A DNA stretch of 64,000 nucleotides from Lutibacter sp. Hel_I_33_5 (lineage in GTDB: Bacteria; Bacteroidota; Bacteroidia; Flavobacteriales; Flavobacteriaceae), in the NCBI RefSeq assembly GCF_007827455.1, contig NZ_VISM01000001.1, forward strand, positions 1,589,501-1,653,500, given 5' to 3'. This document shows positions 13,541 through 16,921 of this stretch, in pieces; within the stretch, counting starts at the first letter, position 1; each line of letters begins with the position of its first letter. Position numbers and translations under genes: made by a program. A model generated the notes under the pieces. The model did not search any database. It worked only from the letters and a program-made list of their open reading frames with translations, and was not told the DNA's origin.

Positions 13541-16500
13541 TTGAATACGCAGACAATTGTCAATTCATACCAAAAATCTGCAAAGACAAAGCAGGTTTTA
13601 GACCAACTTCAACAAGAACAAAACCAATTTCAGATTACGAATTTGGTCGGTTCTTCGTTGTCTTTTGTTATTTCAGAAACTTTTAAAGCCATAGAAAAAC
13701 CTTACTTATTAATTTTTAATGATAAGGAAGAAGCTGCCTATTATTTAAATGATTTAGAGCAATTATTAGGCGATAAAAACGTGTTGTTTTATCCGGGTTC
13801 TTACAGAAGACCTTATCAAATAGAAGAAACTAATAATGCTAATGTGTTATTACGTTCGGAAGTTTTAAACAGAATTAATTCCAGAAAAAAACCTGCGGTA
13901 ATTGTTACCTATCCAACAGCGTTATTTGAAAAAGTAGTTACTAAAAAAGAACTTGAAAAAAATACACTAAAAATTAGTATTGCCGATAATTTATCTCTCG
14001 ATTTTGTAAACGAAGTTTTATTCGAATATCAATTTAACCGAGTAGATTTTGTTACCGAACCTGGAGAGTTTTCCGTGAGAGGTGGAATAATAGATGTTTT
14101 TTCTTTCTCAAATGATGAACCATTTAGAATTGAGTTTTTTGGTGATGAAATTGATAGCATTAGAACTTTTGATGTAGAGACCCAACTTTCTTTAGAGAAG
14201 TTGAAGAAAGTAAACATTATGTCTAATGTAGAAAACAAATCTTTGCTAGAACGAAGAGAAAGTTTTCTAAAATACATCTCATCAAAAACTAGAATTTTTG
14301 CTAAAAATGTTGATTTACTTACAGATCTATTAGATAAATTTTATGCAAAAGCAGAAACTTCTTTTACCGAATTATCTTCAGAAATAAAACATGCAAAACC
14401 CGAAGATTTATTTTGTAATGGTGATTTTATAAAAAATCAATTGAGTGATTTTACTGTTGCTCATTTTGGTGCTACGCGTCACGCTGAAACTAGTTCAGCG
14501 TCTCAACAGAATGAGATTCCGAAACAAGTTCGGAATGACAAAATTATTTCTTTCGATACAAAACCTCAACCTTCATTTAATAAAAAGTTTGAGTTACTAA
14601 CGCAAAACTTTAACGAGTTTTCTAATGCTAATTTTACCAATTACATTTTTTGTGCCAACGAAAAACAAGCACAACGTTTTGATGATATTTTTGAAGATTT
14701 AGAAAAAGAAGTAAGCTATCAAACGGTAATTTTTCCTTTATATCAAGGATTTATAGATCTTGATGAAAAAATAGTTTGCTATACCGATCATCAAATTTTT
14801 GAGCGTTATCATAAATTTCGTTTAAAAAACGGATATGCTAAAAAGCAATCCATCACATTAAAAGAATTAAACAATCTTCAAATTGGCGATTATGTAACGC
14901 ATATCGATCATGGAATTGGAAAATTTGGCGGCTTACAAAAAATTGATGTAGAAGGCAAAAAGCAAGAAGCCATCAAACTAATTTATGGAGATCGAGATAT
15001 TTTATATGTAAGTATTCACTCGCTTCACAAGGTTTCTAAATTCAACGGAAAAGACGGAAAGCCTCCAAAAATTTACAAACTTGGTTCTGGAGCTTGGAAA
15101 AAAATCAAACAAAAAACCAAAGCTAGAGTTAAACATATTGCGTTTAATTTAATTCAATTATACGCTAAAAGAAAACTCCAAAAAGGATTTGCTTTTGGTC
15201 CAGATACGCACATGCAACACGAGTTGGAAGGTAGTTTTATGTACGAAGATACGCCTGATCAATTTTCTGCTACGCAGGATGTAAAAACGGATATGGAAAA
15301 AGAGCAACCCATGGATCGATTGGTTTGTGGAGATGTTGGTTTTGGGAAAACAGAAGTTGCTGTAAGAGCTGCTTTTAAAGCCGTTGATAACGGAAAACAA
15401 GTAGCTATTTTAGTACCAACAACCATTTTAGCTTTTCAACATTTCAAAACTTTTTCTGAGCGTTTAAAAGGCTTTCCCATCAAAATAGATTATTTAAATC
15501 GTTTTAGAACTGCAAAACAAAAAACAACAGCAATTGATGGCGTAAATAGCGGTGAAGTTGATATTATTATTGGTACACATCAACTTACAAATCAACGTAT
15601 AAAATTTAAAGATTTAGGTCTTTTGGTGATTGATGAGGAACAAAAGTTTGGAGTTGCCGTAAAAGACAAATTAAAAACCATCAAAGAAAATGTTGATACG
15701 CTAACGTTAACTGCAACGCCAATCCCAAGAACCTTACAATTTAGTTTGATGGCTGCGCGTGATTTATCGGTCATAAAAACACCGCCACCAAATCGTCATC
15801 CTATCGAAACAAACGTGATTCGTTTTTCTGAAGAAACCATTAGAGATGCTATTTCTTATGAGATTTCTAGAGGCGGTCAAGTATTTTTTATCCATAATAG
15901 AATTGAAAACATAAAAGAAGTTGCTGGCTTATTACAACGTTTGTTGCCGAGTGCAAAAATTGGTATTGGTCACGGACAAATGGAAGGCAAAAAACTAGAA
16001 GGTTTAATGCTTGGTTTTATGAATAATGAGTTTGATGTTTTGGTCTCGACCACAATTGTAGAAAGTGGATTGGATGTACCAAATGCCAACACAATCTTCA
16101 TCAATAATGCCAATAATTTTGGCTTGTCGGATTTGCATCAAATGCGTGGTAGAGTTGGGCGTTCTAACAAAAAAGCATTCTGTTATTTTATTACGCCGCC
16201 GTATCATATGATGACGGATGATGCAAGAAAACGAATTACTGCTTTAGAGTTATTTTCTGATTTAGGTAGCGGAATTAACATTGCCATGAAAGATTTAGAA
16301 ATTCGTGGTGCTGGAGATTTATTAGGTGGTGAACAAAGCGGATTTATTAATGACATTGGGTTTGATACCTATCAGAAAATACTACAAGAAGCTATTGAAG
16401 AGTTAAAAGAAAATGAGTTTAAAGAATTGTACTCATCCGAAGTTAAAAAACCAAAAGAGTTTGTAAAAGAAGTAACTATTGATACTGATTTTGAGATTCT

Positions 16501-16921
16501 TTTTCCTGATAATTATGTGAATTCAATCTCAGAAAGATTGAGTTTATATAACAATTTAGGAAGTCTTAAAACCGAAGAAGAATTATTGGTTTTTGAACAA
16601 AATTTAGTGGATCGTTTTGGTGAAATTCCGAATGAAGTGAAAGATCTTTTATATTCGGTTAGAATAAAATGGTTGGCAAAAAAACTAGGTTTAGAAAAAA
16701 TCATTTTAAAACAAAAAAGAATGATTGGGTATTTTGTTTCCGATCAACAAAGTGCATTTTATCAATCGGTACATTTTACAAAAATGCTGCAATACGTTCA
16801 GCGAAATTCTAAAAGTTGTGTGATGAAAGAGAAACAAACTAAAAATGGTTTGCGTCTATTAATTACCTTTATAAAAATAGATTCTGTAAAAACTGCATTT
16901 AATATTTTAGAGAAAATCTAA
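13541..16921 (+). CDS. mfd: Transcription-repair coupling factor
   Basis: Mfd removes RNA polymerase stalled at DNA lesions and recruits UvrA. The 1126-residue protein shows the UvrB-like N-terminal module, the RNA polymerase interacting domain (about 440-510, IGDYVTHIDHGIGKFGG), a superfamily 2 translocase with P-loop GDVGFGKT at about 596-603 and DEEQ near 697, TATPIPRTL, the QMRGRVGRS motif, and a TRCF C-terminal domain. The start is TTG; no in-frame ATG lies upstream. Residues 313-333 are encoded by an inserted palindromic repeat element (14477-14539) that keeps the frame and falls in the variable linker before the interacting domain. The stop overlaps the next gene's ATG by one base. Confidence 0.96.
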   Translation: MNTQTIVNSYQKSAKTKQVLDQLQQEQNQFQITNLVGSSLSFVISETFKAIEKPYLLIFNDKEEAAYYLNDLEQLLGDKNVLFYPGSYRRPYQIEETNNANVLLRSEVLNRINSRKKPAVIVTYPTALFEKVVTKKELEKNTLKISIADNLSLDFVNEVLFEYQFNRVDFVTEPGEFSVRGGIIDVFSFSNDEPFRIEFFGDEIDSIRTFDVETQLSLEKLKKVNIMSNVENKSLLERRESFLKYISSKTRIFAKNVDLLTDLLDKFYAKAETSFTELSSEIKHAKPEDLFCNGDFIKNQLSDFTVAHFGATRHAETSSASQQNEIPKQVRNDKIISFDTKPQPSFNKKFELLTQNFNEFSNANFTNYIFCANEKQAQRFDDIFEDLEKEVSYQTVIFPLYQGFIDLDEKIVCYTDHQIFERYHKFRLKNGYAKKQSITLKELNNLQIGDYVTHIDHGIGKFGGLQKIDVEGKKQEAIKLIYGDRDILYVSIHSLHKVSKFNGKDGKPPKIYKLGSGAWKKIKQKTKARVKHIAFNLIQLYAKRKLQKGFAFGPDTHMQHELEGSFMYEDTPDQFSATQDVKTDMEKEQPMDRLVCGDVGFGKTEVAVRAAFKAVDNGKQVAILVPTTILAFQHFKTFSERLKGFPIKIDYLNRFRTAKQKTTAIDGVNSGEVDIIIGTHQLTNQRIKFKDLGLLVIDEEQKFGVAVKDKLKTIKENVDTLTLTATPIPRTLQFSLMAARDLSVIKTPPPNRHPIETNVIRFSEETIRDAISYEISRGGQVFFIHNRIENIKEVAGLLQRLLPSAKIGIGHGQMEGKKLEGLMLGFMNNEFDVLVSTTIVESGLDVPNANTIFINNANNFGLSDLHQMRGRVGRSNKKAFCYFITPPYHMMTDDARKRITALELFSDLGSGINIAMKDLEIRGAGDLLGGEQSGFINDIGFDTYQKILQEAIEELKENEFKELYSSEVKKPKEFVKEVTIDTDFEILFPDNYVNSISERLSLYNNLGSLKTEEELLVFEQNLVDRFGEIPNEVKDLLYSVRIKWLAKKLGLEKIILKQKRMIGYFVSDQQSAFYQSVHFTKMLQYVQRNSKSCVMKEKQTKNGLRLLITFIKIDSVKTAFNILEKI
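14477..14539. repeat. Palindromic repeat element inserted in frame in mfd
   Basis: Two adjacent hairpins: CGCTGAA/TTCAGCG (14482-14500, loop of 5) and ATTCCGAA/TTCGGAAT (14516-14536, loop of 5). They are flanked by and linked through GTCA...TGAC and TCTCA...TGAGA, which also pair, so the whole 63-base unit is a double-hairpin dyad. It is relatively GC-rich compared with its surroundings. Translated, it adds 21 residues (313-333, ending KQVRND) with no stop. Double hairpins of this type are familiar as dispersed intergenic repeats in many bacterial genomes; location inside a core gene is unusual. Confidence 0.85.

Follow-up and report, generated by a model that had tools for sequence, protein, structure and literature searches.

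Rickettsia palindromic elements (RPEs) are reportedly the subject of Ogata 2000 and Ogata 2002. CGTC-tagged REPs were described by Di Nocera et al. 2013 (PMC3733652), who name Bacteroidetes among five phyla. These REPs have a terminal CGTC tag (TGTC and CCTC also occur), a stem of 8-9 bp with a loop of 4-5, A-T almost invariably at the first and second stem positions and a short unpaired tail, which is mostly CCA; head-to-head dimers predominate, and the repeats are multi-copy, mainly intergenic and without a dedicated transposase (PMC3733652). Repair genes are frequent among the REP-tagged genes of that paper, a mutator effect is speculated, and as a single case two Xanthomonas species are reported to carry different REPs at nearly one position of recB; the main text makes no mention of mfd. 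For Rickettsia, a paper on R. japonica (PMC3767692) reports different RPE groups at the same loci; hotspots were not excluded there and a common origin was favoured. In our literature search, in which subscription journals were thinly covered, neither a paper on palindromic repeats in mfd nor one on REPs in Polaribacter or Tenacibaculum was found.

The window analysed here is a stretch of 64,000 nucleotides from Lutibacter sp. Hel_I_33_5. The genome (G000) is a single contig of 3.10 Mb and the relatives of its Mfd carry Polaribacter and Tenacibaculum names. In-gene REPs are already known; new here is the recurrence, with several repeat families occupying one loop of a core gene in different members of a genus, unlike the single recB case of PMC3733652.

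A palindromic repeat dimer within mfd

The gene, the element and their parts are located in the window as follows:

13541..16921, + strand: mfd, transcription-repair coupling factor, 1126 aa, with a TTG start in the ORF list
14447..14566, + strand: length-variable loop (landing pad), residues 303-342, bounds taken from the 150-genome alignment
14477..14539, + strand: dimer of the CGTC-type repeat, Mfd residues 313-333, recognised by sequence, blastn and covariance model
14478..14505, + strand: left half-unit with arms 14481-14488 and 14494-14501 and a tail to 14505, the C at 14477 completing CGTC; model match at G000:C1:1603978-1604005 (E 1.2e-5)
14512..14539, - strand: right half-unit, reversed, with arms 14516-14523 and 14529-14536; model match at G000:C1:1604012-1604039 (E 2.7e-8)
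14876..15043, + strand: RNA-polymerase-interacting domain, residues 446-501 (PF02559)

An earlier note on this DNA had described a 63-base unit of paired arms with a TCTCA/TGAGA joint and GTCA/TGAC ends, and the sequence reads as claimed. The stretch is a dimer of a CGTC-type palindromic repeat, whose halves differ in their stems and whose tags face outward; each half is a 28-bp unit made up of a GTC tag, an 8-bp stem, a 5-nt loop and a four-base tail. The terminal tags are CGTC on the left (14477-14480) and TGTC on the right, and the GTAG tag of GTAG REPs is absent from the ends. As RNA, the dimer forms a closed cloverleaf with three hairpins. The RNA fold of 14470-14546 has an energy of -23.8 kcal/mol (z -4.6) and the DNA fold of the same cloverleaf strand a z of -4.9; in both cases none of 200 shuffles was equally stable. 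The ORF is open throughout, and the dimer is translated into RHAETSSASQQNEIPKQVRND. Its left half reads RHAETSSAS and was scored for frame only as an ambiguous reverse core, because its loop is changed.

Mfd of the window genome contains the Pfam domains TRCF, UvrB_inter, CarD_TRCF_RID, DEAD and Helicase_C. The earlier note had placed the element in the linker region before the RNA-polymerase-interacting domain; the loop is not adjacent to that domain but sits well upstream, by ~110 residues. It had also counted 21 residues added in frame. That 21 residues are encoded in an open frame was confirmed, but the net gain is ~16, since the loop has 40 aa in the window genome, whereas its median length is 24 (range 22-39) in the 106 genus members lacking a recognised element. 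In the AlphaFold model, which is poor overall (mean pLDDT 54.4) and was used for the local loop only, residues 311-332 form a low-confidence loop between strands 305-309 and 335-342, the blocks of these strands scoring 82 and 73. The loop could not be aligned with Mfd of E. coli, where the HMMER alignment ends at query 228-233 and restarts at 397-401.

The 77-bp stretch around the element was found by blastn at 18 places in the genome. A covariance model was built from 14 copies (12 distinct), two of which are the mfd halves, and matched the 28-bp half-unit at least 32 times at E<=1, at least 24 of these at E<=0.01; the counts are lower bounds, because 150 of 4311 first-look candidates were scored, and the E-values are rough. 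In the 14 copies 99% of the stem cells were paired, compared with 21-57% in slid controls, and three pairs had changed on both sides. The first stem pair is A-U in 11 of the 12 distinct copies and the second is U-A in 8, A-U in 3 and C-G in 1, the left mfd half having AC. Most of the aligned copies carry the GTC tag and a tail of CTCA or CACA (CCCA in one). Among the 24 matches at E<=0.01 there were three outward-tag dimers, the remainder being single. Eighteen lie outside ORFs of >400 aa, at least nine of them with an ORF end no more than 20 bp away, and six lie in frame within such ORFs: two in mfd, one in BshC (TIGR03998), one in a FabF-like ketosynthase, a weak one (E 0.0099) in an oxidase-like ORF named by eye and a doubtful one in a K/E-rich ORF. 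The stretch 14477-14539 thus belongs to a genome-wide repeat family.

Like the CGTC REPs of PMC3733652, this family has the GTC/CGTC tag, the 8-bp stem and the 5-nt loop, is mostly intergenic, forms dimers, has in-frame genic copies, including in repair genes, and has no linked transposase; unlike them, its tail is mostly CTCA or CACA instead of CCA. The likeness to Rickettsia palindromic elements drawn in the earlier note proved apt, as RPE-6 and RPE-4 are placed in the CGTC superfamily (PMC3733652). With RPE-4, RPE-6 and RPE-7 (PMC3767692) the element shares that palindromes lie in frame in unrelated proteins and that different groups occur at one place of orthologues, but phylum and sequences are different, its relatives by sequence being in Polaribacter/Tenacibaculum, and it is not classed as an RPE.

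Contents of the Mfd loop across the genus

To compare the loop among relatives, as the earlier note had proposed, a set of 150 genomes with Polaribacter/Tenacibaculum names was used in which the loop was read; 74 of them had >800 aa of Mfd. The loop region was matched in 157 of 166 genomes and not in nine, and seven matched genomes (G059, G110, G129, G149, G160, G166 and G167) were left out of the set. The match to the loop region is split in two in G059, G149, G160, G166 and G167, which might reflect larger inserts. Locus finding by motif missed 14 of 177 loci, and the 150-genome tree set was built by alignment instead. At G028:C1:2507327-2510703, mfd matches as two overlapping pieces with a TAG and is maybe broken or affected by a sequencing error.

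Most relatives are without the residues and others hold different repeats. The refuting condition of the earlier note, residues shared by relatives together with a single-copy unit, thus fails in both parts. A recognised repeat was found in the Mfd loop of 44 of the 150 genomes; the repeats fall into six types, and three genomes are mixed:

Type A, the CGTC unit: 22 genomes
Type B/C, GTCATTCCGAAC..AG.GAG: 10 genomes
Type D, TCTCGA..TCGAGA: 6 genomes
Type E, ACAAGGTTT..AAACCTTG: 6 genomes
Type F, CCTGCTAGGTTT..AACCTAGTAGG: 2 genomes
Type G, TTCGACT.CGCTCAG: 2 genomes, a weak type

The loop of G015 contains F, E and A in a row, and in G173 an A dimer has a D element where its first arm would be. 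Outside the loops, these genes amount to 267.5 kb; at the cut-offs used, the cores of A-F had no match there, and type G had two, as many as in the loops. For B-G, both cut-offs and cores had been set after the loops were inspected. The covariance model of the window genome (R1), run on the mfd loci and flanks of 74 other genomes, is an independent test of the loop bias. All of its 27 matches, from 17 genomes, were inside the loop, which makes up 7.0 kb of the 339.2 kb of mfd loci searched.

The loop is nearly the sole length-variable place of Mfd in the genus. Among 50 full-length Mfds it occurs in 16 length classes, and outside of it there were a 1-aa change near ORF residue 979 (8/50) and one 8-aa insert, in G026. 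This separate insert at ORF residue 248 is repeat-like and resembles EPFDSAQDK of type G. On the mfd tree, built from the same genes with the loop excluded, the loop states need at least 28 changes when branches with <0.9 support are collapsed; not all of these changes are gains.

The abundance of the types in their hosts was determined in whole genomes, the mfd copy included. Type E gave 6-31 forward-strand matches in five of the six mfd carriers and type B/C 3-9 matches in five of the ten carriers, and both gave none in G000. Each of the six genomes tested for type D had 1-6 exact sites, G000 having most, and the sole exact copy of G173 is the one in mfd; type D therefore fails to show a link to the host, because it is as frequent in G000 as in hosts and in G173 occurs in mfd only.

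Of the three open frames of the A unit, two are hydrophilic (H-S-E-L-V-S-E-S and E-I-L-K-Q-V-Q-N-D). At <=2 mismatches, all 17 forward and all 15 reverse units were in these frames, and the third frame, VILNLFQNL, was used by none of the 32, which do not equal 32 events because related genomes are not independent. Worn copies stay in frame while their stem pairs decrease from 8/8 in G096 to 6 in G172 and 5 in G183. Whether the worn copies form one clade was also considered and rejected; the smallest clade containing them has 38 genomes (support 0.79), so that they are a series of states and not one lineage. Length variation, frame use and worn copies together point to tolerance, filtering by frame and decay. 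How intergenic repeats give rise to protein segments can thus be traced and tested in a single gene of many species, with copies ranging from intact to worn.

Origin of the inserts

The best-supported reading, judged from the sequence comparisons, is near-neutral capture: a resident CGTC-type dimer was probably fixed in frame in a tolerant loop of Mfd, as one instance of repeated capture followed by decay. Resident repeat families of a species would spread or be copied into genes at random and gene-breaking copies would be lost. Copies that enter the Mfd loop in a hydrophilic frame would cost little and survive, and they would then lose their palindrome by ordinary substitution with the frame kept, or be replaced by a later repeat. 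Since captured copies survive in frame and decay, repeats may be raw material for new loop sequence; the suggestion of the earlier note that the element enters genes and may seed protein segments was borne out by the other in-frame copies, the worn in-frame copies and the recurrence at the site. As the loop holds other repeats in related species, the supply of new protein stretches by repeats seems to be ongoing. Counting against near-neutral capture, loop length differs (22-39 aa) even among genomes in which no element was recognised. No near-identical strain pair with a filled and an empty loop was found, and hence neither an insertion event nor a target duplication was seen.

The alternative of one old insertion, in which a single ancestral mfd palindrome gave rise to today's inserts as divergent descendants, is unlikely. 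In its favour, one pair of stems recurs in the type A dimers of G000, G184, G134 and G067; these dimers may be of common descent, although they are not grouped on the tree. A common origin was also favoured for RPE-4, RPE-6 and RPE-7 of Rickettsia (PMC3767692). However, the cores of A, B/C, D and E are unrelated, intermediates are missing, and E and B/C match families which are multi-copy in their hosts and absent from G000. Furthermore, sister genomes differ in type within well-supported clades, for example one of support 1.0 with D in G060 and G066, E in G013 and none in G001 and G021. Because families that are unrelated share a single site, and two of them are multi-copy in the tested hosts and absent from G000, a hotspot set by protein tolerance is favoured. 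The choice between a hotspot and one old insertion was left open for Rickettsia (PMC3767692), and the mfd loop bears on this question.

That the insert is selected for altering Mfd, for example for a mutator state as speculated in PMC3733652, agrees with the frequency of repair genes among the REP-tagged genes of that paper, and the earlier note, too, had remarked that the copy lies in a core repair gene. But the peptides in the loop differ, are unrelated to one another and become worn, and mfd does not stand out for being a repair gene, since the repeat is also present in the ketosynthase and BshC of G000. Selection of this kind is thus very unlikely, and a mutator effect of insertion becomes less convincing as the reason why repair genes are hit. 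We give hardly any credence to a role of the element as DNA or RNA hairpin (transcript stability, pausing, binding of gyrase or other factors) with only incidental translation: the cloverleaf is stable (z -4.6), but worn copies lose their stems and keep the frame, and elements with other folds lie at the same place. A chance palindrome in an ordinary variable linker, with which the length variation of loops without a recognised element would agree, has practically no probability left, being refuted by a family that is multi-copy and covarying, as the genome search proposed in the earlier note revealed, and by the 27 of 27 model matches in the loop.

Other genes and candidate movers

The 22-aa dimer peptide, searched against 166 genomes, was found at 14 places distributed over 11 genomes; those in long ORFs were all in mfd, in four genomes. 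That mfd is the sole gene hit was nevertheless rejected, as the half-units in BshC and the ketosynthase show that the dimer-peptide search was too narrow. The in-frame CGTC unit of the FabF-like ketosynthase (L256, G000:C1 near 2029124-2029151) is the best-scoring copy of the genome. Among the 120 best homologues (P0241-P0360), the corresponding loop has 13 aa in 64 and is longer in 56; 40 loops match the repeat peptide patterns HSELVSES, GRAQSR or PFDSAQ, and 12 long ones match none. The two other length-variable places of the ketosynthase contain the repeat-like peptides EISPQGRND and SFDKAQD. The ketosynthase loop thus appears to show the same pattern as the Mfd loop at the peptide level, the evidence being protein matches to patterns written post hoc, with a query that itself carries the insert.

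In BshC the repeat was found in one of 30 copies, which counts against generality, and 28 full-length copies had no other internal length change. Of the genes beside mfd, both named by eye, the EamA gene (24 loci) had only a 1-aa indel and the outer-membrane-like gene (20 loci) ordinary indels and no repeat. In Flavobacteriaceae beyond the genus, peptides like types A or G were present in 21 of 113 Mfd loops found in a search from a Maribacter-named sequence; none were seen by eye in 20 loci from the order's other families.

With a little less than even confidence, we suggest that palindromic-repeat capture is a main route of loop lengthening in conserved proteins of this marine Flavobacteriaceae clade: a few tolerant loops (Mfd 303-342 and three places of the ketosynthase) would be repeatedly refilled by resident families in hydrophilic frames, and the inserts would then decay into ordinary sequence. 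If true, protein segments that arose from non-coding DNA would be available in natural series.

A Y1_Tnp match, by which RAYT genes were sought, was absent from the window genome (controls positive 5/14), for which reason a RAYT of this genome was rejected as the mover, and was found in 77 of the 166 genus genomes. It was present in 30 of 44 insert carriers versus 42 of 106 non-carriers (Fisher p 0.002, uncorrected for relatedness or genome size), which is a hint only of a link between Y1_Tnp and carrying an mfd insert; of the type E carriers, 6/6 had it. Nine RAYT-like loci with the motif LKNHFH (L403 and L418-L425) had palindromes with an AGGTTT..AAACCT core, eight on both sides and one on one side. 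The palindromes flanking these genes read GACCTCACAGGTTTT..AAACCTGTGAGGTC. Gene and flanking palindromes are a likely REP-transposase unit of the genus, as known for RAYT-associated REPs (PMC6006769), in which palindromes likewise flank the genes. Types E and F resemble the palindromes flanking this RAYT-type tyrosine transposase, and since they share the AGGTTT..AAACCT core, RAYT likely mobilises them. The window genome is unlike the RAYT-associated systems (PMC6006769) in having no Y1_Tnp match, and the CGTC unit in having no RAYT link in 40 loci.

In these 40 loci no type A pair flanks a Y1 gene. The view that type A is absent beside all RAYT genes had to be dropped after a wider scan, which found type A cores near Y1 genes in 2/40 loci, at a distance of 660 bp in one and nested within a RAYT-flanking palindrome in the other. 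The latter is L424, the RAYT-like locus with the AGGTTT..AAACCT palindrome on one side, where the other flanking palindrome has the type A core in its loop (L424:698-750). Together with the A-D hybrid of G173, this nesting is a hint that older palindromes may be entered by repeats, and a filled site may therefore attract the next repeat.
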